DNA of 64,000 nt from Zunongwangia pacifica (lineage in GTDB: Bacteria; Bacteroidota; Bacteroidia; Flavobacteriales; Flavobacteriaceae), in the NCBI RefSeq assembly GCF_023499215.1, contig NZ_JAKHSK010000011.1, positions 1-64,000 on the forward strand, in the 5' to 3' direction. Positions 1,711 to 17,826 of this stretch are shown here, one piece after another; within the stretch, counting starts at the first letter, position 1, and each line of letters opens with the position of its first letter. A program made the position numbers and the translations under genes. The notes beneath the pieces are model-generated. The model made no database searches. It had not been told where the DNA came from and was given only the letters and a program-made list of their open reading frames with translations.

Positions 1711-1736
1711 GTATACTACAACCAGTTGTATCATAC
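1711..1736. other. attI-like palindrome next to recombinase remnant (copy 1)
   Basis: Imperfect inverted repeat: arms GTATACTACAAC and GTTGTATCATAC (10 of 12 pairs) around a 2-base centre. It sits between the stop of the recombinase remnant and the M20 gene. The interval from GTTTTCAG (about 1685) through this palindrome to ACTAATCTACC (about 1758) aligns with 17253-17327 at the head of the large cassette array, where the palindrome is perfect. Role as a primary insertion site is inferred from position only. Confidence 0.5.
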
Positions 1737-1748
1737 CCATTTTAGGTA

Positions 1749-1905
1749 CTAATCTACCCTATTTTTCATTACAATAAAAGCATTTGCAGCTACATGAATA
1801 TAAATTTCAGCAATTTTTGTGGATTGATGCCCATAAAAACTCAACATGTATTGTCCTCACGTCTACCCTAGCCTAACGGCTACTATTAAAATGCTTTAAA
1901 CAAAA
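1749..1905 (-). pseudogene. Tyrosine recombinase (integrase), degenerate 3' end
   Basis: Minus-strand translation ending at 1749 gives FYGHQSTKIAEIYIHVAANA and then KNRVD-stop. This is the C-terminal box of Xer/IntI-type tyrosine recombinases: the GHxSxxxTxxYxHV motif with the catalytic Tyr in the EIYIHV segment. The preceding segment VDVRTIH, equivalent to the usual VDLRxIQ, is in a different frame, and stop codons interrupt both, so the gene is a frameshifted remnant. No upstream catalytic domain is recognisable. A second, shorter remnant with the same C-terminal tail lies at 17319. Confidence 0.75.
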
Positions 1906-1979
1906 AGAGACTAATCTCCATCGTGGCAATCAACAGGATCTTTATGTTAGGCGTTACCGGTCATACGAAGACTTAGTTA

Positions 1980-2141
1980 TTAGCTACTGTATTTATTTTT
2001 CAAATTTAATTTTCTAATTCTAGTTATGATAGACGAAACACTTCTTCCCATCTTTTCTTCAATTTCATTAGGTTTTTTTCCAAATTTGGGTAAATCCAAG
2101 TTCTATCTCTTAATCTTTTGCCTATCTTTTTCTTGATCCAT
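1980..2141 (-). pseudogene. Small helix-turn-helix-like gene fragment with internal stop
   Basis: Reading the minus strand from an ATG at 2141 gives MDQEKDRQKIKR, a stop, then in the same frame about 40 residues including KPNEIEEKMGRSVSSIITRI and a terminal stop at 1980. The second part looks like the short C-terminal HTH (..EIA..LGRS..SI..RI.KL) found at the end of some bacterial helicases and nucleases. No full-length parent is visible, so this is a decayed fragment at best. Confidence 0.35.
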
Positions 2142-2157
2142 TACGGATCAAGAAAAA
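2127..2157. repeat. Perfect 13-bp inverted repeat upstream of histidine kinase gene
   Basis: Arms TTTTTCTTGATCC and GGATCAAGAAAAA surround the 5-base loop ATTAC, ending 57 bases before the kinase start. The stem is bounded by T and A runs, so it could act as a weak bidirectional terminator or a binding site. It overlaps the 5' end of the neighbouring gene fragment. Confidence 0.45.
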
Positions 2158-2214
2158 ATTGAAAGATTTTATATTCCCTATTTTGAGAAAAAACAGTATT
2201 TTACACTAAAAATT

Positions 2215-4227
2215 ATGAAAATTCCGCCTGTTCCTTACAACGATGCTGAACGATCTGAAGAGGCTACTCAATATAGCAAATACTCTATAGAGGAAGAGGA
2301 TTTGAATTTTTTAAGCGCAATGGCTGCTGAAATTTGTAACACCAATAGCGCTCTCATAACACTTATCGGTAAAGACAAGCAGTATATTCAGTCAGCTTTT
2401 GGTATAGAATTAGAGGTTCGGGAATTTCCCAGGGAATTTACGTTTTGTGCCCATACTATTAATAATACAGATAGTGCTACTGTGATCCCAGATGCGAGAA
2501 AAGACGAACGATTTAAAGATAATCCATTTGTCACGGGTGAAAATCCGGTAATATTTTATTCCGGTTATCCTTTAGTGAATAAAAATGGGTATGCTTTAGG
2601 TACTATTTGTGCCATAGATGGTAAACCGAAAGATTTAAATGAAGAGCAGAAAAACAAATTAGCTTTACTTGCAAGGCAGGTAATGAATTTACTGGAACTT
2701 AAAAAACAGTCCGAAATTCTTACCAAAACAAATAAAGAACTTTCTAAATTAAATAAAAGATTCCAATACATCACCAATAGTACAAACACGGGTACTTTTG
2801 AATATGATATAAACAACTATTCTCTCGAATTTAATGAGGGCTGGTGCATAATTACAGGCTATCCCAGCGAAAAAGACTTATCTTTAAAAGAATGGGAGCA
2901 GCTTGTTCACCCAGAAGATCTTCCTGGTTTAAAGCAAAAAATTAAAAAACATTATAATGCTCAGGATCGTTTTAATTATCAGTTTCGGCTTTTGCATAAC
3001 AATGGGAAATACATCTGGATAAGCGCCAAAGCCCAGTTTAATTTTGGCTTCGCTAAAGATGATCCTACCCATATCTACGGGATACTTATAGATATTACCA
3101 AACAGAAAAATAAAGAGTCTGAAATTCTTTATAGACAAAAACTCTTGCAATCATTATATGAGCTCTCTCCCATTGGTATTGCCCTAAACGATTTTGAAAC
3201 GGGGGCTTTCTTAGAAATAAATGAAAAACTATTAGAACCTACCGGTTATACCCGAGAAGAATTTTTAAAACTGAATTACTGGGATATTACCCCAAAAGAA
3301 TATGAACTACAGGAAGCACAGCAAATAGAATCCATGAATGCAACAAGTTCCTACGGTCCTTACGAAAAAGAATATATAAGAAAGAACGGAGAAAAATATC
3401 CGGTACTTTTAAGAGGTATATTGGTAGAAGATCTGGAAGGAAATAAGAAAATATGGAGTTTTGTTGAAGATATTTCTGAGCACAAAAAAGATGAATTTGA
3501 AAAGGCACAGCACCTAGAAAAGATCCAGAGTTTATTGCATATAAAAAACGATCAAAATGAGCGTTTAAAAAATTTCGCTCATATTGTTTCCCATAATTTA
3601 CGTTCCCATTCTGGTGCTATTAACACCCTTATCTATTTTATACAAGAAGAGAATACTATCTTAAATGACCAGGAAACATTTAAGTATTTAATTCAGGCAT
3701 CATCAAACCTGGAGGGTACTATTAAGGATTTAAATGAAATTGTGGAAGTAAATCTATCTGATGCCAGAGATTTTAAACAGATTGACATCTACCCCTTGAT
3801 TCAAAAGAATGTGGAAAGTGTATTTCCGCTTGCCAAACAAAACAAGGTAGAAATCTTTACCAATGTTGAACCGGAAACCTATATGGTAGGGGTACGCTCT
3901 TATTTAGAAAGCATTTTCCTTAATTTCATCACGAATGGTATTAAATACAGCGCTGTAGACCGGGATAGCTATCTCAAAATTTCTGCGCAGTCGGAAGGAA
4001 ATTTTACGACTGTAGTCTTTGAAGATAACGGTCTGGGAATAGATATGAAAACTTATGGCAAGAAACTATTTAAAATGTATCAAACCTTTCATACCCATAA
4101 AGATGCCCGTGGCATAGGACTGTTTATTACCAAAAACCAGATAGAAACGATGAACGGAACTATTGAGGTAACTAGTAAAGTAAACGTAGGTACTACTTTT
4201 AAAATTAAAATCCCTAATAAAAAATAG
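2215..4227 (+). CDS. GAF-PAS-PAS sensor histidine kinase
   Basis: A 670-residue soluble hybrid-free sensor kinase. Residues about 25-165 form a GAF domain (the FCAHTI..NTD and GYPLVNKNGYALGTICAID segments are typical). Two PAS/PAC units follow at about 180-298 and 305-425. The dimerisation/phosphoacceptor helix carries H460 in VSHNLRSH. The HATPase domain shows the N box around N574, the G1 box DNGLGID (604-610) and the G2 box GIGLFI (633-638). No membrane segment is present, so it senses a cytoplasmic signal, probably through GAF or PAS. No response regulator is adjacent, so the partner is encoded elsewhere. The ATG at 2215 has no Shine-Dalgarno sequence, as usual in this phylum. Confidence 0.9.
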   Translation: MKIPPVPYNDAERSEEATQYSKYSIEEEDLNFLSAMAAEICNTNSALITLIGKDKQYIQSAFGIELEVREFPREFTFCAHTINNTDSATVIPDARKDERFKDNPFVTGENPVIFYSGYPLVNKNGYALGTICAIDGKPKDLNEEQKNKLALLARQVMNLLELKKQSEILTKTNKELSKLNKRFQYITNSTNTGTFEYDINNYSLEFNEGWCIITGYPSEKDLSLKEWEQLVHPEDLPGLKQKIKKHYNAQDRFNYQFRLLHNNGKYIWISAKAQFNFGFAKDDPTHIYGILIDITKQKNKESEILYRQKLLQSLYELSPIGIALNDFETGAFLEINEKLLEPTGYTREEFLKLNYWDITPKEYELQEAQQIESMNATSSYGPYEKEYIRKNGEKYPVLLRGILVEDLEGNKKIWSFVEDISEHKKDEFEKAQHLEKIQSLLHIKNDQNERLKNFAHIVSHNLRSHSGAINTLIYFIQEENTILNDQETFKYLIQASSNLEGTIKDLNEIVEVNLSDARDFKQIDIYPLIQKNVESVFPLAKQNKVEIFTNVEPETYMVGVRSYLESIFLNFITNGIKYSAVDRDSYLKISAQSEGNFTTVVFEDNGLGIDMKTYGKKLFKMYQTFHTHKDARGIGLFITKNQIETMNGTIEVTSKVNVGTTFKIKIPNKK

Positions 4228-4510
4228 ATAATAGTTCTCTTAAAATTAGCTTTTTTAAGAATTTAATTTAGCAAAAAATACATTCTTTTAAAGTATTATG
4301 AACCAAGTAATTCCTCCTGTTTCAGGATTTGTTTCTTCCCTAAAGAATTTTCGTTTTGTTTGATTGTACATTCTTTACAATTCTTCTTGCTGCCGTTTCC
4401 ACTTCTCTGCCATTCCCGAAAATTAAACCTGTAGCAGTTCATCCTGGACAAACGAACAACAGGTTTTATTTTTTTCATTATTCATCGAGCAATGTCCACC
4501 AATATTCCAT
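4228..4510. other. Intergenic gap between convergent genes
   Basis: Lies between the ends of the kinase and the SDR gene. Short open frames exist on both strands but none has a recognisable product. No clear terminator hairpin was seen. Confidence 0.4.
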
Positions 4511-5350
4511 TTATTTAAAATCTGTTGAAACCGATACCTGTTTCCAGTCCTTCATCGTATTCGTTAAGGATTCAATTTTAGACCACGCTCTATCGTAAGC
4601 ATCACTGCCCATAAATAAATTCATCGGTGGATTGGGTTCAACTACCAATTTTAAAAGAACCTCCGCCACTTGATCAGGATCTCCAATTTGATTTCCATCT
4701 GTCGATTTAAACTTGCTATGTGCTGTTCGGATATGCTCATAATCTGTAATTTCCGTCTTACTCAAATAAATAGATTCTTCTTTGGCAAAACTGGTCCTAA
4801 ACCAACCGGGAGAAACTATAGAAACATTAATTCCTAATGGTTTGAGCTCATTTGCCAGTCCTTCAGATACTCCATTAATAGCAGATTTAGCAGCCCCATA
4901 AACAGACCATCCCGTACCCGGTGCGAATCCCGCTATCGATGAAATATTAATGATATGTCCTGACCTTTGCCTTCGCATATAAGGAAGTGCCTGCTGTATC
5001 ACTTTAATAACAGCAAAAAAATTAACTTCAAAACTTTGCTTGATTTCTTGCTGAGTGAGTTCTTCTAGAGCTCCTCCCGTGCCAAATCCGGCATTGTTCA
5101 CAACTACATCAATGCGATTAAATCGAGCTATGGTCAACGCTATTGCATTTTTTATAGAAGGCTCACTGGTCAAATCTACTTCGAGTGGCAAAAATGAAGC
5201 GGAATAATTTTCCCCGAATTCATCGGTTAATCCTTTTATAGTTCTACTTGTTGCAGCGACTTGATGTCCTTTTTTTAATAGTTGTTTGGCTAAAGCTAAT
5301 CCGAGTCCTTTAGAAGCGCCAGTAATCAACCATACTTTTGAATACTCCAT
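4511..5350 (-). CDS. SDR family oxidoreductase
   Basis: Classical short-chain dehydrogenase/reductase of 279 residues. The Rossmann nucleotide motif TGASKGLG is at 10-17, NNAG at 85-88, the catalytic Ser in NISS (137-138), and the YxxxK pair at Y151/K155. A serine/threonine-rich segment after the first beta strand (TSRT) fits NADP(H) preference. The substrate is unknown. The AraC-type regulator 75 bases upstream on the same strand probably belongs to the same unit and may control it, an arrangement often seen for SDRs of this subgroup. Confidence 0.88.
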   Translation of the reverse strand: MEYSKVWLITGASKGLGLALAKQLLKKGHQVAATSRTIKGLTDEFGENYSASFLPLEVDLTSEPSIKNAIALTIARFNRIDVVVNNAGFGTGGALEELTQQEIKQSFEVNFFAVIKVIQQALPYMRRQRSGHIINISSIAGFAPGTGWSVYGAAKSAINGVSEGLANELKPLGINVSIVSPGWFRTSFAKEESIYLSKTEITDYEHIRTAHSKFKSTDGNQIGDPDQVAEVLLKLVVEPNPPMNLFMGSDAYDRAWSKIESLTNTMKDWKQVSVSTDFK

Positions 5351-5425
5351 AAATTTAATTTTTAGACAAAATTACTGGAGCTTTCCGTAGATAATTTATG
5401 GTAATCAAACCATAGTTTGCATTGA

Positions 5426-6319
5426 TCAAACTTTTCTAAACGCTGATGGGGAGTATTGGGTTTGCTTTTTAAAAAAAGCATTAAAATGTGATTGATCTTC
5501 ATAACCAAGTGCCTGACTAATTTCCGCTATATTCCAATCTGTATGTTTTAGTAATGCTTTTGCTTCGGCTAACAAGCGCTCAGCAATATGCGCTGTAGTG
5601 GTCTTTCCGGTAGTTTTTTTCAAAGCCCGGTTTAAATGGTTCACGTGAATAGCCAATTGATCTGCATAATCTGAAGGATTTCGATAATTAAATTTCTGTG
5701 TCCTATGTTCAATCGGAAATTGCCTATCCAGTAATTCCTTAAAAACGGCTGTAATACGGGTATTGGCATCTACAAACCTGGGTTTTACCTGAAGTGGAGA
5801 AAGTTTAATGCTCAAGAATATCAACTGCGATACATAACTTTTAATAAAATCATATTTATAGGCATAATCACCTGTGATCTCTTTTTCCATTTTTACAAAT
5901 AGAGCGCGTATTTCTGCTAACAAATTACCTGAAAGTTGATAGATAGGTTTTGCTTGCGGTTGAAATAAAGGAAGATCAGACAGGTTAATCCTTAGGCTTT
6001 CTTTTAAAAATTCTTCTTTAAAAACGCAAAAATAGCCTTTGGTAGCTGGTTTTAATACTTCATAAGAGTAGGGAGTCTCCGGATTAAAAAAAAGCAATGT
6101 TTCTCCTGAAACCGGTACACTCTCATCACCAAAGTGAAAAATATTCTCGCCTTCAAATAACATCATTTTATAAAAGTCCCTCCTTACGTATGGTGGTATC
6201 TCATAGTTGCGTTTTATATTATCTTCAATATTAAACACGTCAAACAAACCAATTTCTTGATCCCTTACTTTTGGCGGTGTTTGAAACTTATGTTTATAAA
6301 ATTCTTCTAAAGATTCCAC
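5426..6319 (-). CDS. AraC family transcriptional regulator
   Basis: 297-residue regulator with an N-terminal cupin-like ligand domain (about 20-160; an HFGDESVPVSGETLLFF strand pattern is visible) and a C-terminal double HTH (about 200-297). The second HTH has the family hallmark IAEISQALGYEDQSHFNAFF followed by KK and Y.PSAFRK. It is transcribed in the same direction as the SDR gene just downstream, its most likely target. Two segments of the gap behind it (6320-6600) hold no recognisable gene. Confidence 0.9.
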   Translation of the reverse strand: MESLEEFYKHKFQTPPKVRDQEIGLFDVFNIEDNIKRNYEIPPYVRRDFYKMMLFEGENIFHFGDESVPVSGETLLFFNPETPYSYEVLKPATKGYFCVFKEEFLKESLRINLSDLPLFQPQAKPIYQLSGNLLAEIRALFVKMEKEITGDYAYKYDFIKSYVSQLIFLSIKLSPLQVKPRFVDANTRITAVFKELLDRQFPIEHRTQKFNYRNPSDYADQLAIHVNHLNRALKKTTGKTTTAHIAERLLAEAKALLKHTDWNIAEISQALGYEDQSHFNAFFKKQTQYSPSAFRKV

Positions 6320-6595: not shown

Positions 6596-7342
6596 TTATT
6601 GAGATACGTAGCTTGTGCAACGGTTACCATTTTTAGCACAAGTATCTTTTATTTTAACTTCATCAATTTTATAAAAAACAATTTTTTTTGTGTCCCCATA
6701 ATGTTTCTTTAGGAACTTTTTTAGTGATTGAAATTCAATTGGTTTAAATATTCCATTTTTAGAATAAAATATATCATTTTGGAAATAAACAAAATGAATT
6801 ACCCAATCACTTTGATTAACGAATGCTAATAGCACATCATTAGGAATAGCTTGTTTTAAGTTTTTAGACGGTTTAGTGGATATTTCCCCTATTTTTTTGA
6901 AATAATTATTTAATATTTTCTCGGCTGATTCTCTGTCTATACTTGAACGTTTCCCAAATAAATATTGATCAAAAGTCTCATTATTAAGAAAATATTTTTC
7001 TAGAGCATATGTATAACAGTTCTGACCTCCCGTTTTTGTGATCTGTATTAAGTCATCAATATCTTGTTGAGTTCTGTATAAAGTACTGTCCTTTAATGAT
7101 TTTCTCAACTTTTCTAAATAAGTGGTATCAATTTTTATATTTTTATTTTGAATATTGACTGTTATTGTATCATTTAACCATAACACACGAGTTAAATTAG
7201 AATTTAATTTTGTCTTAATAGTATCTACTACAATGGATTTAATAGTAATTGGATTGAGAGATATTGAATTTGTCTGACTATATATAGTTACAAATGCAAA
7301 ATAAAATAATAAAGTAGTAATGGTTCTTTTCAACTTAGTCAT
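6596..7342 (-). CDS. Secreted protein with papain-like Cys/His signature (cassette gene)
   Basis: 248 residues with a cleavable signal peptide (1-22, ending IYSQ). The middle part has NCYTYAL (C109) and, 70 residues later, DWVIHFVYFQNDIFYSKNGI (H183). This C...H...W/YSKxG pattern recalls small NlpC/P60-like or papain-like proteins of Bacteroidota, so a cysteine amidase or peptidase fold is possible but unproven. The last ten or so residues (after about 235) are encoded by the cassette core TTTAGCACAAG and the 18-bp IS-end motif at 6611-6628, so the native C-terminus is replaced. It is the last intact gene at the distal (left) end of the array. Confidence 0.6.
   Translation of the reverse strand: MTKLKRTITTLLFYFAFVTIYSQTNSISLNPITIKSIVVDTIKTKLNSNLTRVLWLNDTITVNIQNKNIKIDTTYLEKLRKSLKDSTLYRTQQDIDDLIQITKTGGQNCYTYALEKYFLNNETFDQYLFGKRSSIDRESAEKILNNYFKKIGEISTKPSKNLKQAIPNDVLLAFVNQSDWVIHFVYFQNDIFYSKNGIFKPIEFQSLKKFLKKHYGDTKKIVFYKIDEVKIKDTCAKNGNRCTSYVSQ
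6611..6628 (+). repeat. 18-bp motif, copy 3 (solo IS1182-type end)
   Basis: GCTTGTGCAACGGTTACC, identical to the sequence that ends the IS1182-type element at 15173-15190 and the IS remnant at 7978-7995. In all three places it is followed by three variable bases and then a cassette core. Here no transposase sequence precedes it, so it looks like a solo end left after a deletion. Confidence 0.6.
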
Positions 7343-7350
7343 TTTTAATA

Positions 7351-7481
7351 TTTGTGCTAACGTAATTGGCTATGATTTAGTTGCGTGAAAATCCTTGCGG
7401 ATTTTCCGCCGAGAACCGAAGATAGCAAATTTGCGAGGACTTTCCTATCGGAAAGTCAGAAGCGATGAAATATAGCACCTG
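7351..7481. repeat. attC-like palindrome between cassette genes (site A)
   Basis: Left core TTTGTGCTAACG and right end ATAGCACCTG flank nested hairpins: GAAAATCC-TTGC-GGATTTTC, then GACTTTCC-TATC-GGAAAGTC. The left core pairs with TTTAGCACAAG on the far side of the gene at 6596, rather than only with its own right end. That is the pattern expected of a recombined cassette site. Unpaired bases (ACGTAATTGGC) would bulge from the stem. Confidence 0.65.
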
Positions 7482-7995: not shown

Positions 7996-8011
7996 GGTGT
8001 TGTAATGCGTT

Positions 8012-8599
8012 TTAATTTTCAGATAGTATTTTTATAATATTAGTTCTATATTCTTCGTCCTTTTCTTTTATTTCTATGAATCCATTTGGCAAATCAGGAT
8101 TTAGATAGAATTCAGAATATAAATTACGTTCATCGTTTTCATCAAAGAACAATTTAAATCGAAAACTACTATTTTCTAGAATAGCTTTTTCTCTGTTTAA
8201 GGATAATGCTATAAAAATCAGTTTTTTGTTAGAGAACTTTGTCTTAATTGGTTGTCTATAAAGTTTGGACATTATTTCAATTAGTTTGTCGCTTTCTTTT
8301 CCAATTGACTTAAATTCAACTCCGTTGTAAGAAACTCCAGGGTTATCAATTGCGCCTCCAGAAATTCCATTTTCTATATTTATTTTTAGTCCGACAATTT
8401 GGTCGTTATACTTAGCTTTGCAGGTCAAGCTCCAAAATCCGTTGTCTAATTTTTCTTTTTGGGTTATGGTCAAAATTAAGTCCATCCAACCTTCTTCAGC
8501 GTCTTGGTTTGAAGTCAGTTCAATTAAATTTCCGTTTTGACTAAATCCGAAAAGACTACTTAAAAATCCCATTATTAATATTATTCGTTTAATTTTCAT
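8012..8599 (-). CDS. Secreted protein of unknown function (cassette gene)
   Basis: 195 residues with a signal peptide (1-20, FGFSQ). No domain recognised. The body alternates beta-rich and charged segments and has no cysteine cluster. The gene is tightly bracketed by cassette cores: its stop lies three bases from GTTGTAATGCG and its start is 13 bases from GCATTACAACG, a perfect 10-bp inverted pair (GTTGTAATGC) private to this gene. It is transcribed in the array direction. Confidence 0.6.
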   Translation of the reverse strand: MKIKRIILIMGFLSSLFGFSQNGNLIELTSNQDAEEGWMDLILTITQKEKLDNGFWSLTCKAKYNDQIVGLKINIENGISGGAIDNPGVSYNGVEFKSIGKESDKLIEIMSKLYRQPIKTKFSNKKLIFIALSLNREKAILENSSFRFKLFFDENDERNLYSEFYLNPDLPNGFIEIKEKDEEYRTNIIKILSEN

Positions 8600-8612
8600 T
8601 GGTTGGTCAAAT

Positions 8613-8751
8613 GCATTACAACGGATTGTATAAATTTAGTTGCGTGTGGCAGCCCTAAGTTAGCAAACAAACCAAGAGCGGAAAAATCCGAATGGATTTT
8701 TCCAAATAGGGAATGGCCTAGCAATTAACTTTATACGGTTTTACCTGCTGG
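8613..8751. repeat. attC-like palindrome (site B)
   Basis: Inner arms GTATAAATTTAGTTGC and, reverse-complemented, GTATAAAGTTAATTGC pair. The loop contains GGAAAAATCC-GAAT-GGATTTTTCC. The outermost bases do not pair: the left core GCATTACAACGG belongs to the gene at 8012 and the right end (CGGTTTTACC) to the gene at 8755. Mismatched outer cores with matched inner arms indicate strand exchange at the AAC/G point. Confidence 0.7.
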
Positions 8752-9438: not shown

Positions 9439-10811
9439 TTAATTTATTACAAAACCTATATCTTCATTAGTCAACCCAAATTTATCGATTTGCTTTTTAA
9501 TACGCTTTACCAGCCCCAGTTTTCTTTTCTGGTCAAGGAATAAGTAACCTTCCGGATTTATATAAGGCACGACTTTTATAACCATGTTCCAAATAATCAC
9601 GGCTAATTTTCTTGCCGTGGCACTAATAGCCGAGACCCGTCCTTTTCTAAAGTTTATTCTATGGAAAAAGTCCCGCAATGGTGTGGGGTCTTTTAAATTG
9701 CCTATGGCATTGGCAGCATTTCTAAGCGCAATTTTAAGCCGGTTGCTTCCCTTGGGGACTTTACTCGATAGTACTTTACCTTATTGTTTGGAGCCAGCCG
9801 CAACCAGCTTGCAAAGTGTTTGGCAGTTGGGAATTTCCTGATCCCTTCAATTCCTACTTCGATAATCAGTGCCAGGACTGTAGCATAGCTCATTCCCTTT
9901 ATGGCCAATAAATCTGTTCCTTCAAACATCTGGTAAGATTTTAAGTTCAGGTCGATGTCCTTGGGCGTGTTTTTATGGATCCTCTTATGGGGCTTTGGGT
10001 CAAGGTGGTGTTCCCGCTTATTATCGTCAGACCCTATGATCTCTTCCAGCATTTTTGCTATTTCTTTATCACACTGGCCTATTTTTAATTGCAGGTGATC
10101 ATAGGTTTCCAGCTCCTGCCCAAGGGCGAACAAGTAATCCTTCCTTCCATTGGATTGCAAAGCACTGGCTATTTCGGCTTCACTTTTGCGGCAATTCCCG
10201 TGGCGTAGGGAAGCAAGTTTTTGGGGATTGGTCTCTCCATTGCAGATTTCCCGTATGATCAATAAACCGGTAAGCCCACAAATGTCTTTTACCACCACAT
10301 CCAGACGAAAATTGAGCAGTCTTAGATATTTCTGCATTTTTTTGGAAGTAGAGGCGGCTGCATGCAGAAGATTGGATCTGTGCCTGCAGTAGGTGCGCAA
10401 CTGTTCAGTTTTTCCATCGGGCAGGAAACTACCGCTGAGCAGTCCCAGGGTATGCAACTTCTGGATCCACTGACAGTCCATCACATCACTCTTTTTTCCT
10501 TTGATATTCTTGGTGAATTTCCCATTGCAGAGGATGACATAGAACCCCATGGCAACCAAAACAGCATACAGGTTTTGCCAGTACGTACCGGTGCTTTCCA
10601 TAGCGACGGTTTTGATGTGTCTTTCCTTCAACCACTCAGCCATGGCAAAGAGGTCCTGGTTGAACACTCCGAACTCGCGAACATCCTGTTCGGATTGGCC
10701 AACGGCCACCCAATGAGAGCGGCTTCCAATGTCGACCCCAGCAGCGTGGGGATGGACAATTTCCATTGAAATTGATGCTTCCATAGTTTTTGAAAATTTA
10801 AATAGCTCCAA
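9439..10811 (-). pseudogene. IS110-family transposase, frameshifted
   Basis: The N-terminal DEDD domain (AGVDIGSRSHW with the first Asp, an AMESTGTYW Glu motif, then KGKKSDVMDCQW) and the start of the Transposase_20 domain (FEGTDLLAIKGMSYATVLAL) are in one frame ending at 9702. The family's conserved end (VLSSKVPKGSNRLKIALRNA and on to the stop at 9439) continues in another frame. The break is at about 9768-9780, where the expected NNKVxGGKVLSSK reads NNKVK. An ancestral GGTA...GGTA direct repeat collapsing by about 10 bases would explain it. The usual catalytic Ser region of the C-terminal domain is therefore out of frame and the protein is probably inactive. Confidence 0.8.
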
Positions 10812-12101: not shown

Positions 12102-12228
12102 GATTACAACGGTTTGCATATGGCTTGTGGCGGTTTAGAAGCACTTTCCTGTCCATCGAAACCAAAGCTGGCTGTGAAGCAAAAACCTTGCTGGCAGCTT
12201 TTCACCCGCCATAAGCTATATGCGTTGT
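12102..12228. repeat. attC-like palindrome split by a group II intron (site E)
   Basis: Left arm 12102-12133: core GATTACAACG, a bulged GTTT, then CATATGGCTTGTGGCGG. Right arm 12206-12228: CCGCCATAAGCTATATG then CGTTGT. Inner arms pair almost perfectly. The right core would continue AGCACG but these bases now lie at 12886, on the other side of the intron. Internal pairing AAAGCTGG...CTGGCAGCTTTT is also possible. Confidence 0.75.
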
Positions 12229-12885
12229 GTGTGCCCAGCATGGGCATCTTTATCATATCTAAGATATGATATTAATCTAGAGGGTGCAAGTCCCTTATGG
12301 GCAGGGGTGACGCCTTGAACCATTAGTAAGCCGCAAGGTTGTTATCTGTGAAGATAGAACTGAAGGAAGCGGGACTACAAACCCTGGTACTGACGAACAG
12401 GAACCGGATAAGAGGCTATAAGGTTGGATGAACAAGCACATCATTGTGAAGTCCTAAACGTTTCTTTGGAAATGAATACCGAAGTAGTAGATCCGGCAGG
12501 AATCAGGGGAAAAAAGATATCCTTACCTGGGGAGGTCTCCATAACCACGGCGTGGTATAGTGGAGAAGTCAGCAGAGGTCATAGTACCCATAGGGAACGA
12601 GGTGCAGCAAACTGCATAGGTCTCACAAATGGGAAAGGACTGAACATAATCCTTTCGGAAATTAGAATAGGAGCATTGTTTTTCATTCATTGGGTGACCG
12701 AATCCCAAGAAAATCTGTAGCCTATTCATAAAGTACGAAATAGTTTCAATTGGTGTAAAGAGCGAGTGAAAAGATGGATTATGAACCGCAGTACCTGCCT
12801 GCCGCAGGCAGGTACGAGACCCGTATGTACGGTGGTGTGAGAGGCGCACTCCGTCAGTTACTGGCGGAGCCATCTACTCGATTGT
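12229..12885 (+). mobile_element. Group II intron without reverse transcriptase, domain V disrupted
   Basis: Starts GTGTGCCCAGCATGGGC and contains the domain I elements GAGGGTGCAAGTCCCTTATG and GGAACCGGATAAGAGGCTA, then GAAGTCAGCAGAGGTCATAG. It ends with a domain V (ACCGCAGTA..., ...TACGAGACCCGTATG, TACGGTGGT, 12785-12836) and domain VI (GTGAGAGGCGCACTCCG... CTACTCGAT). No reverse transcriptase is encoded: only about 200 bases separate domain I-III and domain V. A 19-bp GC-rich palindrome (12794-12812) splits domain V. Either 12227-12883 or 12229-12885 restores the same joined sequence GCGTTGTAGCACG, the cassette core of the gene at 12895. Orientation is opposite to the cassette genes. Confidence 0.75.
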
Positions 12886-12894
12886 AGCACGTTT

Positions 12895-13515
12895 TTATTT
12901 TATTTTTTCTTTGTCCACGAGCTTTGAAAGGTTCGTGTGATAATACTGTTTTACATCTGTCTTGTCTTCAGGGACTATTTCAAATGACTTTGATTTAATT
13001 TCAATTTGATTTTTTAAGGTTGCCGAAGTTCCTAATCCGAAAAATGACGAATTATTGAATCCTACCAATTGTTCTTCTAAATTCTTACCGTTAACGTCTA
13101 CCACGATTGGTTTTGAATAAGTATGATTGAATGTCCATTCGTTCAAGTATCCGATTCCATTTGAGTCTACTGTCAAAATGTTTTCTGTCACATTCGATTT
13201 TATGAGACTGACTTGACCCGTATAATTCTCGGGCACGACAATTTTCAAGGTCGGTGAGTAGAGTTGGTAGTGAAAAACAGAAAAAACTATGGCTGTTATC
13301 GTGAAATAGATTGTCCAAAAAGGAAGTTCTTTTGAAATCAATTTGGTCAACCAAGTCAAGATTAGTCCGCCAACCAAAATTAGAGTGATTATCATTCCAC
13401 CTAAAAACAGTCCTGACAGAAACACTCCGCTTGAAACTTCTGTCAACTTGTAAATCAAAGTCGCTAAAAGTCCCAATGAAATTAGTCCTGTCACTATTTT
13501 CAAATTTCGGTTCAT
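12895..13515 (-). CDS. Membrane protein of unknown function (cassette gene)
   Basis: 206 residues with three predicted membrane segments (about 7-23, 30-54 and 66-83) followed by a soluble C-terminal domain of about 120 residues rich in beta-strand patterns. No domain recognised. The private core pair around it is GTTGTAGCAC (split by the intron) and, on the other side, GTGTTACAAC. Its stop is four bases from the left core, the spacing typical of this array. Confidence 0.6.
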   Translation of the reverse strand: MNRNLKIVTGLISLGLLATLIYKLTEVSSGVFLSGLFLGGMIITLILVGGLILTWLTKLISKELPFWTIYFTITAIVFSVFHYQLYSPTLKIVVPENYTGQVSLIKSNVTENILTVDSNGIGYLNEWTFNHTYSKPIVVDVNGKNLEEQLVGFNNSSFFGLGTSATLKNQIEIKSKSFEIVPEDKTDVKQYYHTNLSKLVDKEKIK

Positions 13516-13520
13516 TTTAA

Positions 13521-13548
13521 TGTGTTACAACGATAGCCATAAAAATAG
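13521..13548. other. attC-like half site left of the IS1182-type element (site F)
   Basis: TGTGTTACAACGATAGCCAT, the upstream core of the gene at 12895. Only the left arm remains, because the IS begins within about 20 bases. The right-hand partner core of the next gene is at 15194-15204. Confidence 0.55.
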
Positions 13549-15107
13549 TGTTTCTTTTGGGATATAAGGGTTTGGAAACATTATTTTTATGGCCTGTTAG
13601 GGGACGTTTTTTTTCCCAACAATTGGTTTTGGAGGTGCTTGGTAAGGAAAAAATCTCCGGTTTTCTCTACGAACTCACCCGTGTTTTCTACGGTAGCAGC
13701 GGTCAGAAGAGTATTGATCCCATCGTGTTTTTTAAGCTTTGTTTGGTGGGTTATTTAGAGGATATCATCAGCGACCGTAAGCTTATCGAGCATTGCAGTA
13801 TGCGACTGGATATCCTGTATTTTATAGGCTATGATATTGATGAGGAGTTGCCCTGGCATTCAACCATCAGCCGCACGCGGCAGTTGTTCCCTGAAGATGT
13901 GTTTGAATCGGTTTTTACTAAAGTGTTCACGCTTTGTGTAGAAGCCGGGATGGTGAGCGGACATACCCAGGCTATCGACAGTGCCCCGGTAAAGGCCAAC
14001 GCTTCGATGGACACTCTGGAACTAAAAGTACCTGAGGAAGAACTGGAATCTCACCTGCGTAGGGTTCGTCACATCAGCGCTATGGATAAAGAACAGCCCT
14101 TTCGCAAAAGCAAAGAGGATAAATCAGACAAAGGTCAACGCAGCATAACTGCCAATGAGCAGGAACTACAGGCTATTACTACCCGTAACAAGCGTTGGAG
14201 CAAAGATCAGGATCAACGTCCGGGAGCCGGGAACAAAGGCAGTAAATACACCAGCAATAAAACCCATTACAGTCCTAGCGATCCTGATGCACGCATCAGT
14301 GTTAAACCGGGCAAGGCCAGAAAACTCAATTACCTGAGTCAACTTAGTGTAGATACGGGCCATCACGTGATCACCGACATCAAAGCTTACCACGCCGATG
14401 GTAAAGACAATCAACAACTTCCCGATATTGTAAAACGGGTAAAGCGACGCTTGTGGCAACAAGGTCTAGTCTGGGAGAACTGTGTGGCAGACACGGGATA
14501 TAGCAGCGGAGAGAACTACGCCTTCTTAGAGCGTCAGGGACTCAAGAGTTTTATACCTGCCCACGGCACCTTTAAAGGCGGGCCTGATGGATTTATGTAT
14601 GTTGAAGATCAAGATCATTACCTGTGCCCACAGGGCAAGATCATCCCGTTTACCAAGGAGTTCAACGATTACAGGACAGGTACCCGCAAGAAAGAATACC
14701 GTGCCCGCAAGCACGTGTGTATTGACTGCCCAATACGCAGCAGCTGTCTGGGCAAAAGCGCACAGGAAAAGAAGTTTAGCGTTACTTATTACCGGGCAGA
14801 ATACCAGCGCAACATCGCCCGGGTAGAAAGCCCTCAGGGCAGGTATATGAAAGGCAAACGGCAAAGCACGGTAGAGCCCGTCTTTGGAACCTTGACCCAG
14901 TTTATAGGATTAAGGAAGGTAAATACCGTAGGACTAAAACAAGCCAACAAGTGTATGCAACTGTCCGCCATCGCCTACAACATTAAGAAGTACCTCAAAT
15001 TCACTCAAAAACGGGTGAAAAGTGGGGCAGGAATGCTCGGCTTGTATTTTAGACTAAAAACAGCCCTAAAAGAGGTGTTTAAATCAATGCAAACGACCGT
15101 TCATTAA
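13548..15107 (+). CDS. IS1182-family transposase
   Basis: 519-residue DDE transposase. The N-terminal DUF772-type region has SIDPIVFFKLCLVGYLEDI; the catalytic core contains IDSAPVKANAS (first Asp), VDTGHHVITDIKAY and VADTGYSSGEN (second Asp); a Cys-rich insert CIDCPIRSSC follows; and the C-terminal STVEPVFGTLTQF carries the catalytic Glu, then NIKKYLKF. Length and domain order are normal. The extreme N-terminus is less typical and the true start could be slightly different. GC content is higher than in the flanking cassette genes, consistent with a recent arrival. Confidence 0.88.
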   Translation: MFLLGYKGLETLFLWPVRGRFFSQQLVLEVLGKEKISGFLYELTRVFYGSSGQKSIDPIVFFKLCLVGYLEDIISDRKLIEHCSMRLDILYFIGYDIDEELPWHSTISRTRQLFPEDVFESVFTKVFTLCVEAGMVSGHTQAIDSAPVKANASMDTLELKVPEEELESHLRRVRHISAMDKEQPFRKSKEDKSDKGQRSITANEQELQAITTRNKRWSKDQDQRPGAGNKGSKYTSNKTHYSPSDPDARISVKPGKARKLNYLSQLSVDTGHHVITDIKAYHADGKDNQQLPDIVKRVKRRLWQQGLVWENCVADTGYSSGENYAFLERQGLKSFIPAHGTFKGGPDGFMYVEDQDHYLCPQGKIIPFTKEFNDYRTGTRKKEYRARKHVCIDCPIRSSCLGKSAQEKKFSVTYYRAEYQRNIARVESPQGRYMKGKRQSTVEPVFGTLTQFIGLRKVNTVGLKQANKCMQLSAIAYNIKKYLKFTQKRVKSGAGMLGLYFRLKTALKEVFKSMQTTVH

Positions 15108-15190: not shown

Positions 15191-15206
15191 TTTGTTACCA
15201 CACGTT

Positions 15207-16394
15207 TTATTTTTTAAAGTTTTCATAATATGTTCCATTCGGATTTAGATTAAAGAATTCAAAAATGTCCTTTTTAGCACTTATGTTTTTTGGATTCCTC
15301 AAGTCAGCTTCCAATTCGTAAAATTCGGATTCCCAATATGGTTGATTAGAATTTGTTTTGATACAATTCTCTAATGTCTCTTTGTGAAAATTTACAGTAG
15401 CTCCAATCGATTCCACTCTATAAGGATTTGACTTTAATATTTTTTCCCAACTTTTGGCATTTTTGTCTGGATTTTCAATCGCTAAATGCTTGTTGTATTT
15501 TTTTGTTGTGGTTTCTTTAAAAATAAGTCCATATTGCAAATAAACGGTATCAAAATCTCCGTAATGAATGCTTTTGGAATAAGAAATAGGAAAATCAAAT
15601 TCTGATTCCGATAGAGGTTGGTTTCCAATTACCTCATAGTCTCCGTAGAACAAAACATTGTCCATAATATATTGAGCAGGAATTGACTTTTTTGTTTTAA
15701 GTTCTTCTAAATCGGTTTCTTTAGTTGGGCTTATGAAATGGTAAACTTTAATGACAAGAGGTTGAGTCATAAGGTTCATTATTCCGTAATTTTTATTTGC
15801 CTTAAACTTTGAATCCTTTCTTAAAGGTCTCAAATCGAAAATCAATCGTCCAAATCCATAATTTCGTCTGTCAACTTTGAAAGCAAAGAAGTCACCTGCT
15901 TTTAGCTTTATCCTTTTTCTTTTTTTTGAAGAGAATTGTTCGATTGATTTCAGGTCTTCTGAATTTGAGTTTCTTATGAAATCATTGAGCCAATTTTTTA
16001 AATCCGAAATATCTTTAAACTTTATATTCTCAAAATGAGTTGAGTAAAATGTGTTTTGAGTTGTGTGGTTTCCGATTGTTATTCCACTAATCCCAAAATC
16101 GAAATAAGTGCCAATTGGTGTTTTTGATTCTAATGTTGAAGAAGTCAGTTTCTTTGCTTTTCCTTTTTGAGTTTTTGGAAGCAGAAATTCTCGGTTTTCA
16201 GTTTCCTCATTATATTGAATTTCTGAATATTTTAATTCAGTTGAAATCACTTGTTTTCGGATAGTATTTTTATCAAAGTATAAAATTGAACTTGGGCGAT
16301 AAGAATCCCCTTGAAGTGTGACTTTTTCCCAATTATTTGCAACTAATTCTAAACCTAAATATTTGCGTTGTTCATTGTTTAATTCAAAAGTCAT
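15207..16394 (-). CDS. Imm26-like protein (cassette gene)
   Basis: 395 residues, cytoplasmic. Residues about 165-275 match the outline of the Imm26 immunity family: KLKAGDFFAFKVDRRNYGFG then RLIFDLRPLR, followed by a VYHF segment and YIMDNVLFYGDYEVIGNQPL. Imm26 proteins protect against polymorphic toxins; here no toxin gene is adjacent, so this may be an orphan immunity gene stored in the array. The N-terminal third is unassigned. The gene is bracketed by a perfect inverted pair GTTACCACAC (15194 side and 16409 side). Confidence 0.6.
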   Translation of the reverse strand: MTFELNNEQRKYLGLELVANNWEKVTLQGDSYRPSSILYFDKNTIRKQVISTELKYSEIQYNEETENREFLLPKTQKGKAKKLTSSTLESKTPIGTYFDFGISGITIGNHTTQNTFYSTHFENIKFKDISDLKNWLNDFIRNSNSEDLKSIEQFSSKKRKRIKLKAGDFFAFKVDRRNYGFGRLIFDLRPLRKDSKFKANKNYGIMNLMTQPLVIKVYHFISPTKETDLEELKTKKSIPAQYIMDNVLFYGDYEVIGNQPLSESEFDFPISYSKSIHYGDFDTVYLQYGLIFKETTTKKYNKHLAIENPDKNAKSWEKILKSNPYRVESIGATVNFHKETLENCIKTNSNQPYWESEFYELEADLRNPKNISAKKDIFEFFNLNPNGTYYENFKK

Positions 16395-16408
16395 ATGGTT
16401 TTCTCAAA

Positions 16409-16548
16409 TGTGTGGTAACGGCCCTGGCTATGGCAAGTGCGGGATTTTGAAACCGCTTTCTTGTCCGCTAGACCGAATGTTATTTAGTTTAATATCTTCA
16501 TTTTTAAGCAGTCAGCCCGCATTTGCTATAGCCGATGTTGGCAACTGG
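16409..16548. repeat. attC-like palindrome (site H)
   Basis: The clearest site in the array. Left arm: core TGTGGTAACG, bulge GCCCT, then GGCTATGGCAAGTGCGGG. Right arm: CCCGCATTTGCTATAGCC then GATGTTGGCAAC. The inner arms pair at 16 of 18 positions, while the outer cores do not pair with each other. Instead each pairs with the far side of its own gene (15207 and 16551). Confidence 0.8.
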
Positions 16549-16550
16549 CT

Positions 16551-17243
16551 TTATTTTTTTAGTTTCTGCATTATTTTTTCGTCTTGAAATGTTCTAATTC
16601 CATTTTCATAATTCGTCCTGAAATATTCGTCATATCCCGTTTCGTTTATTTTATCAGCAATAACCTGTTCGTCCAAAAATTTCTTCGGGTCAGGAACAGT
16701 CAATGTCGCAATTAGAAAATCGAAGTCATTCATTTCTTCTGTCCATTCGATATTGAGAAATCCATTTTCATCAATTATCTCAGGTTCGTTGTCTATTTGA
16801 TAATCTGATTTATTCCAATCGTAGTCTTGGTATATTTTAGCCCACCTTTCTTTTATGATTTCAAGACCTTTACTATTCTCCAATTTCGGATTTATTAAAA
16901 GCCCTAATGTTCCCCAAGTTTTGTTTAAGGAAGGTCTAGACTTTTTCCAAAGTCCTTCAGCTCCAGCCATAGCAAAGGCCTGACTTTCTAAATTTCGTGC
17001 ATTTTTAATAGTTTCTTTTAATGGTAGGATGTATGCAGTTCCAAAATCAGTCTTTAGATGGTTAGAAACAATCATTGTGTAAGTATCCTGTCTGGTGCTT
17101 GATTTTCTTCCATAGCGAATTCTAATTCTTACTGGAACTTTATTGTCATTTGTTTCGAGATAGACTTGTCGCCATTTTTCTCGTTTTGGTGTTTTCTCCC
17201 AAAATAAAGAACCAATGATTATTGCTCCACCTTTAAATTCCAT
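16551..17243 (-). CDS. Conserved hypothetical protein (first cassette gene)
   Basis: 230-residue soluble protein without signal peptide. It starts GGAIIIGSLFWE and has a basic RIRIRYGRKSSTRQDTYTMI segment near residue 60. The C-terminal half is acidic. I do not recognise a family. It is the gene nearest to the attI-like palindrome and recombinase remnant, so it would be the most recently acquired and best expressed cassette if the array works like an integron. Its private core pair is GTTGGCAAC on both sides. Confidence 0.6.
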   Translation of the reverse strand: MEFKGGAIIIGSLFWEKTPKREKWRQVYLETNDNKVPVRIRIRYGRKSSTRQDTYTMIVSNHLKTDFGTAYILPLKETIKNARNLESQAFAMAGAEGLWKKSRPSLNKTWGTLGLLINPKLENSKGLEIIKERWAKIYQDYDWNKSDYQIDNEPEIIDENGFLNIEWTEEMNDFDFLIATLTVPDPKKFLDEQVIADKINETGYDEYFRTNYENGIRTFQDEKIMQKLKK

Positions 17244-17262
17244 TTCGTTCTGTTTTCAGCTT

Positions 17263-17300
17263 GTTGCCAACGTACGGATAACACAACTTGTTGTGTTATC
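17263..17300. other. attI-like region with perfect palindrome (array head)
   Basis: TTGCCAACGTACG is the 5' core of the first cassette. Next to it lies a perfect inverted repeat, GATAACACAAC-TT-GTTGTGTTATC (17277-17300), between that core and the end of the recombinase remnant. The same order, with a slightly degraded palindrome, occurs at 1711-1736. I infer a primary recombination site; no promoter was identified in it. Confidence 0.55.
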
Positions 17301-17318
17301 TCCATTTTAGTTAAAGTA

Positions 17319-17363
17319 CTAATCTACCGCATTTTTTATTTTTTTAAAAGCATTTGTAGTATG
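17319..17363 (-). pseudogene. Tyrosine recombinase, last residues only
   Basis: Minus-strand translation ends HTTNAFKKIKNAVD-stop, matching the tail NAFIVMKNRVD of the remnant at 1749 and the usual NAFKKIKNPLD-like end of integron-type and Xer-like recombinases of Bacteroidota. Upstream of the His the sequence no longer resembles an integrase, so a deletion has removed the catalytic domain. The ACTAATCTACC stretch at the stop is shared between the two loci. Confidence 0.6.
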
Positions 17364-17826
17364 ACCTGCCAGCATTTTTCTTTTTAATTGTTCCATTCGA
17401 TAGTATTTGATATTCCGTCTTTCCTTTACTCAATATCATATTCCCATAAATACCCATTAACTAAGTAGCAATCAAAAATCGTGAATTTCCTTTATATAAA
17501 TTATGTAAAACCAGTAGAAATAAGACACGAAGTTACTCAACTTCTACCCTACCATTTTGGATAATATTGTTCTTTTAGTTTAGTAGGCAGACTCAAGGCA
17601 ACATAAAATATAATTTTGATTTCGATCATACCCTGACTCTGATTGAATACAAACAATTTAGGGCTATTTTAAACACTTCTTAAAATTTTAAAATACTAAG
17701 AGCTATACAAATCTTGTTTTCAATCCCTGTTTCAACTATTTTTAAGACATAATCACTTAATTTTTAGATAGTTTTACATTTTTAAACAATTTGGCTAACG
17801 GAATAAAATAATTCAAAATCAATAAA
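17364..17826. other. Intergenic region beyond the array head
   Basis: AT-rich. On the minus strand a short open stretch (RRNIKYYRMEQLKRKM) runs into the recombinase tail without homology I can name. The last 60 bases must carry the promoter of the esterase gene, but no clear TAnnTTTG box was found. Confidence 0.4.

Follow-up and report, generated by a model that had tools for sequence, protein, structure and literature searches.

A palindrome behind a recombinase remnant as the candidate head of an integron-like cassette array in Zunongwangia pacifica

Introduction

What kind of element begins with the end of a tyrosine recombinase gene, a perfect palindrome and a row of genes that all point away from them? 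The question is raised by positions 17263–17366 of a 64,000-nucleotide stretch of Zunongwangia pacifica (GCF_023499215.1, contig NZ_JAKHSK010000011.1), and this whole stretch is called the window here. An initial annotation had proposed that the palindrome may be the primary, attI-like insertion site of a cassette array. From the comparisons described below, we consider it very probable that this segment is the head of an integron-like cassette array, that only the last codons of the array's own integrase gene survive there, and that the palindrome together with CGTAC-GTT makes up an attI-like site.

Results

The array head and its intact counterpart

The palindrome GATAACACAAC-TT-GTTGTGTTATC is present exactly as annotated on the plus strand (Table 1). 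On the minus strand, upstream of the palindrome, the codons for NAFKKIKNAVD and the stop codon TAG occupy 17354–17319. These codons had been read as the end of a tyrosine recombinase and this is borne out, since an intact recombinase gene on contig C72 of the same genome has a 3′ end and palindrome that match the block 17357–17269 at 92% identity. Only the last codons remain in the window copy and the rest of the gene is gone. As had also been claimed, the recombinase points toward and along the cassettes, both in the window and in most relatives read. This layout was said to be unlike that of class 1 integrons, which is correct for class 1, but a co-directional layout has already been described for Treponema integrons (PMC3607928).

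The intact gene encodes a tyrosine recombinase of 375 residues that ends in THVATNTFKTIKNPLD and is followed by the palindrome and CGTACGTT. The window and C72 have identical palindrome arms and differ at the centre, which in the reading direction of the recombinase is AA in the window copy and TT in the C72 copy. The two ORFs that follow the intact gene over the 1.4 kb to the contig end are on the other strand, which speaks against the proposed reading. The whole genome gave one protein-level match at E 1e-40 or better. A search of the genome with 17200–17700 gave 24 matches, including itself and short self-matches of the palindrome, and we picked 21 places with a recombinase tail and/or a palindrome-like site in the window and ten stretches of the genome. 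A second, decayed head of the window, at 1718–1874 (Table 1), precedes an M20 peptidase gene (ORF 386–1696).

Comparison of platforms, each a recombinase gene with its palindrome, locates the junction. Those of G000 (the C72 copy), G003 and G005 are 97–98% identical through the palindrome to the end of CGTACGTT and then continue into three different sequences, with one pair having one further base in common. In G002, two platforms are 96.8% identical and split 8 bases past their GTT. A primary insertion site should show just such a change of cassette at the GTT, and this supports the idea that the site is attI-like. The palindrome itself is best seen as part of that site, and joining would occur at the GTT 5 nt past it and not within it, which refines the first proposal. 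As a separate observation, the contigs of L094, L100–L103, L105, L111 and L114 end 44–380 bp past the integrase stop, as expected if the array head is repeated in those genomes.

The recombinase and the IntI family

The C72 recombinase contains Phage_integrase and SAM-like domains. It scored 227 bits with the XerA-type NCBIfam model NF040815 (archaeal XerA, cut-off 220) and 204 bits, in two stretches, with the integron integrase model TIGR02249, for which the curated cut-off is 265. Six residues (R235, K260, H324, R327, H350 and Y359 in L104 numbering), which we take to be the catalytic ones, are invariant in 46 aligned relatives.

The alternative that survives best is an ordinary IntI-type integron in which the integrase gene is reversed, as in Treponema. 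The co-directional layout known from that genus fits it, the attC logic, the GTT boundary and the cassette ends described below are the same, and the top fold match is an IntI: with the AlphaFold model (pLDDT 85.7), the best Foldseek match in the PDB was IntI4 (2a3v, E 4.6e-17). The TIGR02249 match can also be counted in its favour, but at 204 bits it lies below the cut-off and is split in two. The additional domain is given as a defining character of IntI (PMC9668308, in the part available). In the accessible text on an integron-like subgroup the insertion is called 'not fully conserved' (PMC8138268), so on that looser definition membership among the integrons stays open.

Two comparisons set the recombinase apart at this insertion. 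The spacing between K-G-x-K-x-R and H-x-L-R-H is 58–59 residues in 108 pattern-testable of 116 members (from 118 proteins, two that contained a stop or an unknown residue were dropped), compared with 100 residues in 21 pattern-testable of 28 IntIs from the same phylum. Alignment to IntI4 likewise shows a gap at the IntI insertion, from which we conclude that the IntI-specific additional domain is absent. In a midpoint-rooted tree of 41 proteins, calculated without L084 and L088, the IntIs (12 of the 28 extracted, all from the same phylum) form one clade (support 100/99) and 23 members of the present group form another (95/91).

The N-terminal residues, about 75–100 of them, are a further difference from IntI. 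They form a separate alpha/beta domain in the model (pLDDT 84.8), and nothing significant turned up for this domain in Pfam, with a PDB sequence profile or in Foldseek. Archaeal XPB headed the VIA-align list (Z 7.0 over 58 residues, 1.9 A), below the trusted level of the tool, with the HARP domain of SMARCAL1 further down (Z 4.2). The XPB damage-recognition and HARP domains may thus be its nearest folds, as weak leads only. With the separate clades and this domain, we regard a reversed IntI-type integron as improbable and favour an integrase clade of its own.

Canonical IntI genes were found in 57 of 198 genomes drawn from the phylum, and none of the 58 genomes of this draw with an IntI match belongs to the window's family. 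In four genomes (G427, G437, G472 and G567) a canonical IntI match occurs together with one to the profile of the present clade; the latter contains a stop in G427 and is partial in G472.

The palindrome is conserved at a fixed distance from GTT

Relatives of the recombinase were found in 39 of 60 whole genomes, its own included (E 1e-40 or better), in 67 of 397 genomes of the window's family (1e-100 or better) and, by profile search, in 27 of 296 genomes of the phylum (1e-90 or better). In named species at least 403 were confirmed and the best 80 kept; Maribacter, Arenibacter, Aquimarina, Winogradskyella, Gillisia and Tenacibaculum, with others, are among the matches listed. The initial annotation had suggested looking for intact recombinases with a palindrome and a cassette array behind them, and this arrangement was found at most sites. 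After the stop codon there usually comes a palindrome, the sequence of which varies; about 5–6 nt further on stands a GTT, which is mostly followed by a co-directional gene.

For the main test, palindromes were sought within the 22 nt before GTT in 107 distinct downstream regions and, with the identical search, in dinucleotide shuffles. Mean pairing was 9.23 of 12 arm positions compared with 6.47 in the shuffles. At least 9 of 12 positions were paired in 68% of the regions and 3.6% of the shuffles, and at least 11 of 12 in 26% of the regions and none of the shuffles. The centre of the palindrome was 16–18 nt before GTT in 82 of the 107 regions, against 25% in shuffles. In 34 of the 107 regions fewer than 9 of 12 positions were paired, and there is no good palindrome at those sites.

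The arms also covary. Pairing of a site's own arms averaged 8.98 of 12 across 95 distinct sites, compared with 4.6 for arms exchanged between genomes; the 8.98 figure is inflated by choosing the best palindrome, and the 107-site shuffle test is the fair control. Every arm position shows at least three pair types. Both tests count distinct sequences. A set of 118 loci was retained, three of 121 having been dropped because identity was below 45% or the match stopped short of residue 365. When the GTT condition was lifted (116 loci, two of the 118 having too little downstream sequence, and some genomes being represented twice, through two collections, as with L103/L182), no more than 1 of 60 shuffles equalled the palindrome in 71 of the 116, and the other 45 fell short of this mark. 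Some close homologues, L098, L113, L119, L130 and L170 among them, showed no clear palindrome in this unconstrained test. A palindrome behind the recombinase is therefore common and not universal.

These spacings bear on a second alternative, namely that the palindrome does no more than terminate the transcript of the integrase gene or regulate that gene, and that the array is ordinary gene order. The palindrome does lie close behind the stop codon and could form a hairpin. In the 73 regions with at least 9 pairs, however, the distance from its centre to GTT is nearly fixed (s.d. 1.15), whereas the distance from the stop codon ranges over 17–88 nt (s.d. 13.6). With a nearly fixed GTT distance and a variable stop distance, the palindrome is tied more closely to the junction than to the gene end. 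Moreover, a run of T rarely follows the palindrome in the examples read, and the cassettes change at the GTT. A terminator is thus very unlikely, and an attI-like site, whose palindrome the integrase may recognize, agrees better with the data.

Cassettes and inserted elements in the window

By our own reading, the array runs on the minus strand leftward from the head to about 6.6 kb and is interrupted by an insertion sequence, a group II intron and an IS110-family element (Table 1). Cassette 1 starts with GTTGGCAAC at 17271–17263 and ends with GTTGCCAAC, a match read by eye. The start of cassette 2, GTTACCACAC, is the reverse complement of its own end, GTGTGGTAAC, over 10 nt, and the same holds, again over 10 nt, for the start GTTGTAATGC of the cassette at 7999–8622. 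The insertion sequence with ORF 13548–15107 splits the second attC-like site, halves of which were recognized by eye on both sides, and the group II intron adjoins the third.

Table 1. Coordinates of the array head, cassettes and associated elements (window positions unless a locus is named)
Feature	Position	Strand	Basis or source
Palindrome of attI-like site, 11-bp arms and 2-nt centre (24 bp)	17277..17300	.	Sequence; covarying arms in relatives
Integrase 3′ remnant ...TNAFKKIKNAVD, stop TAG 17321-17319	17319..17357	-	Part of block 17357-17269
Spacer CGTAC followed by GTT, the inferred point of crossover, 17 nt from palindrome centre	17269..17276	-	Platform divergence there
Cassette 1, ORF 16551-17243 (230 aa), no Pfam match	16418..17271	-	Sequence
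attC-like site 1, AAC 16539 ... GTT 16417, long complementary arms	16410..16546	-	Sequence
Cassette 2, ORF 15207-16394 (395 aa), Imm26 immunity domain	15194..16419	-	Pfam, E 1.3e-19
Insertion-sequence transposase ORF, DDE_Tnp_1_6	13548..15107	+	Pfam
Cassette 3, ORF 12895-13515 (206 aa), no Pfam match	12877..13531	-	
Group II intron, domains 1-4	12342..12524	+ (opposite to cassettes)	Rfam RF02001, 117.5 bits
attC-like site 3, complementary arms CATATAGCTTATGGCGG / CCGCCACAAGCCATATG	12108..12226	-	
IS110-family transposase ORF within array	9702..10811	-	Pfam DEDD_Tnp_IS110
attC-like site	8620..8740	-	
Cassette, ORF 8012-8599, no Pfam match	7999..8622	-	
Further cassette, ORF 6596-7342, start GTTAGCAC; ORF continues into next site	6596..7361	-	By eye
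Decayed second head with an imperfect palindrome and the integrase tail ...STKIAEIYIHVAANAFIVMKNRVD	1718..1874	-	73% identity to intact 3′ end
TnpF-tet(X3) attI-like palindrome	L203 4853-4882		Acinetobacter plasmid

An immunity family (Imm26) was found by Pfam in one of the seven window cassette ORFs scanned, which is too little to call the whole array an immunity array, and PADLOC reported nothing for six window cassette ORFs. At gathering thresholds, Rfam returned only the group II intron in the window. Direct repeats within the window were uninformative, probably because what the attC-like sites have in common lies more in structure than in sequence.

Several side observations concern elements at such sites. 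A 684-nt block that carries the group II intron occurs at 12201–12883 of the window and at 1208–1890 of L038, on the opposite strand in both and at two different attC-like sites; the Rfam intron match is seen only in the window copy and not in that of L038. Group IIC introns that target attC are known from integrons, and the placement of this block resembles theirs. At two genomes a transposase element (MEYQQGQDREQL...) was found by eye at the ACCGT of attC-like sites (L074 5082–6635 and 7609–9162 on the reversed locus, L076 4481–6028), and it may be an insertion sequence that aims at attC. In L043 (contig C35 of the same genome as the window; about 1900–6100, reversed), there are attC-like sites with a left half of the usual attC kind and a right half resembling the attI palindrome and integrase tail, with one cassette present twice and another between. 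These mixed sites recall the delta-attI-type cassettes of PMC12901181, as described in the part of that paper available.

Cassette starts are complementary to their own ends

Across 38 arrays, attC-like sites, defined as complementary arms between AAC and GTT, occurred at 8.8 per 10 kb downstream of the integrase, compared with 2.5 upstream and 2.7 in block-shuffled sequence. In an integron, the first bases of a cassette derive from the end of its own attC. The start is therefore expected to be complementary to the cassette's own end but not to the end of its neighbour. For 225 cassettes the mean match of own start and own end was 2.96, compared with 1.54 in shuffled pairings and 1.74 with the start of the next cassette. 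All five bases beyond GTT matched the own end in 98 of the 225; the exact match fails in the other 127, through missed sites, decay or no relation.

A model-free repeat of this analysis used only ORF coordinates. At least 8 nt were in common in 136 of 357 own pairs and 169 of 1428 other pairs (p 1e-20), and at least 10 nt in 24% of own pairs compared with 1.7% of others. Upstream ORFs, used as controls, gave no excess (9/120 own versus 76/404 other; 24/139 versus 71/476). In the window alone the result is only suggestive: 3 of 9 ORFs matched versus 1 of 36 other pairs, which is not significant (p 0.12), in an array broken by insertion sequences and an intron. Two of these cases, GTTACCACAC and GTTGTAATGC, are clean and the third, TTTAAATT, looks like chance. 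No excess of end matches was seen in the other DNA of the window.

The sites are also foldable. Folding of 20 verified sites as bottom strands gave z values of −2 or less relative to shuffles in 17 cases, and by eye the lowest-energy structure contained an integron-type outer stem in 14 of the 20 and lacked it in 6. These were the first 20, at most two per locus, of 66 sites with cassette ends matching 8 of 8. Among seven regions from more distant members of the group, the end signature was present in L085, L086, L090 and L092 and none was seen in L088, L091 and L093. L092 (G003) represents a second integrase subfamily of the same genus at 36–37% identity, of which a similar match lies at G005:C2:1026230-1027369; its array has the end signature in 4 of 9 ORFs and no clear palindrome.

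The end signature is pertinent to a third and still more doubtful alternative, that the recombinase is a Xer/dif-type resolvase with the palindrome as a dif-like core site, the array having grown otherwise. The score above the NF040815 cut-off (227 versus 220 bits) and a structure of XerH on a palindromic site (5jjv) speak for it. Dif resolution, however, should not produce the cassette-end signature. A single recombinase with a single dif does not describe what was found, namely 21 places with a head or tail across the stretches examined, some relatives with two intact copies of the recombinase gene and, in the window's own genome, a separate Xer-like recombinase (L009, labelled by reading). 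As for a palindrome that lies by chance next to the decayed integrase of a phage or ICE, the local copy is indeed a pseudogene remnant, but the layout is kept in 73 of 107 homologous loci across the named genera and we give this idea practically no credence.

A model for cassette insertion

Together, these data favour the head of an integron-like array, and they suggest the following mechanism. An integrase of a clade found in Bacteroidota and on plasmids, intact on C72, would be supplied in trans to the window array. It would bind attI, that is, the palindrome and the GTT box, and would synapse it with a circular cassette at the folded attC-like site of the latter. Strand exchange would take place at the GTT with single-strand recombination of the attC. 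The newest cassette would then enter beside the integrase gene and be read in the direction of the integrase. Judged from sequence, the system looks like an integron and probably works like one, and going strictly by the integrase insertion it does not belong to the IntI family.

Discussion

We lean toward the broader view that Bacteroidota contain a second integron lineage parallel to IntI, with a clade that lacks the insertion, an N-terminal domain of its own, a palindromic attI oriented along the array and attC-type cassettes. This lineage would explain how the rAID immunity arrays of gut Bacteroidales arise and how tet(X3) was first captured, before ISCR2 carried it into Acinetobacter.

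IntegronFinder reportedly relies on the IntI additional domain. One survey picked integron integrases by the same domain (PMC2426708, as far as its available text goes), and with selection of this kind the present lineage would be missed. In the accessible part of the IntegronFinder 2.0 paper, one complete integron is named in Bacteroidetes proper (PMC9024848). Within the window's family, close members of the present clade occur in 67 of 397 genomes, versus no canonical IntI in the draw of 198. If our view is right, the IntI insertion is not the sole way to recombine folded attC sites. The acquisition of immunity genes by rAIDs, called an area of active research in the available text of PMC12247911, would become testable as recombination. 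The exit of tet(X3) from its ancestral host would gain a concrete origin, because tet(X3) sits like a first cassette behind such an attI.

Comparison with known systems

The system resembles IntI/attI/attC integrons in that an attI-like primary site adjoins the integrase gene, the junctions lie at GTT, the cassettes share one orientation, the attC-like sites are foldable and, on sequence evidence, cassette starts are complementary to their own ends. Unlike in integrons, the integrase belongs to a separate clade and is built without the IntI insertion and with an additional N-terminal domain, its gene is co-directional with the cassettes, and the attI mostly has a palindrome centred 17 nt before GTT. 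Treponema-type integrons are closer in layout, with intI transcribed toward attI; their integrases are filed as IntI (PMC3607928). The present integrase lacks the IntI insertion.

The rAIDs, recombinase-associated acquired interbacterial defence arrays of Bacteroidales, are described for defence only in the part of PMC12247911 available. A search of plasmids led to recombinases of Bacteroides ovatus, Parabacteroides distasonis and Phocaeicola massiliensis that are 36–42% identical to the present one. In the two annotated records (B. ovatus and P. distasonis; that of Phocaeicola carries no annotation), the recombinase heads co-oriented immunity genes, which is the rAID arrangement. These recombinases group in one clade with the window type (99/97). 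Own starts matched own ends in 18 of 34 rAID ORFs compared with 7 of 136 other pairs (p 3e-5; control 0/14), and by array in 9/15, 7/10 and, for Phocaeicola, 2/9, so that the signature is clear in two of three. An imperfect palindrome follows the recombinase in the B. ovatus and P. distasonis arrays, two of the three, by eye. Imm26 is encoded both by window cassette 2 and by the second gene behind the B. ovatus recombinase. In contrast to the present arrays, the attC-like sites of B. ovatus are shorter and their boundary is mostly A-TTA and not GTT[AG], as judged by eye.

The fragment of TnpF (XerD) before tet(X3) on Acinetobacter plasmids is 57% identical over residues 146–375 and falls in the same clade of the tree. 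About 145 bp past its stop is TATACGCCA-TT-TGGCGTATA, then a GTT 17 nt from the centre and then tet(X3); beyond tet(X3), CTACTAAC and the following sequence resemble the left half of an attC by eye. The two records viewed contain no run of cassettes behind TnpF, and TetX3 gave one weak 26% match and no chromosomal tet(X) cassette among the fetched loci. These modules differ from the present arrays in having a truncated recombinase only, in lying on plasmids and in being moved by ISCR2 (PMC7722449, available part). Flavobacteriaceae have been named as the potential ancestral source of tet(X), with the order xerD-tet(X3)-res-orf1-ISVsa3, in a paper whose accessible text has neither the word integron nor the word cassette (PMC7494873).

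With XerA, XerH and XerD, finally, the recombinase has in common the core fold, the catalytic residues and the family model NF040815. Unlike them, it is linked to cassette arrays, is present in two copies in some genomes and has an extra N-terminal domain.
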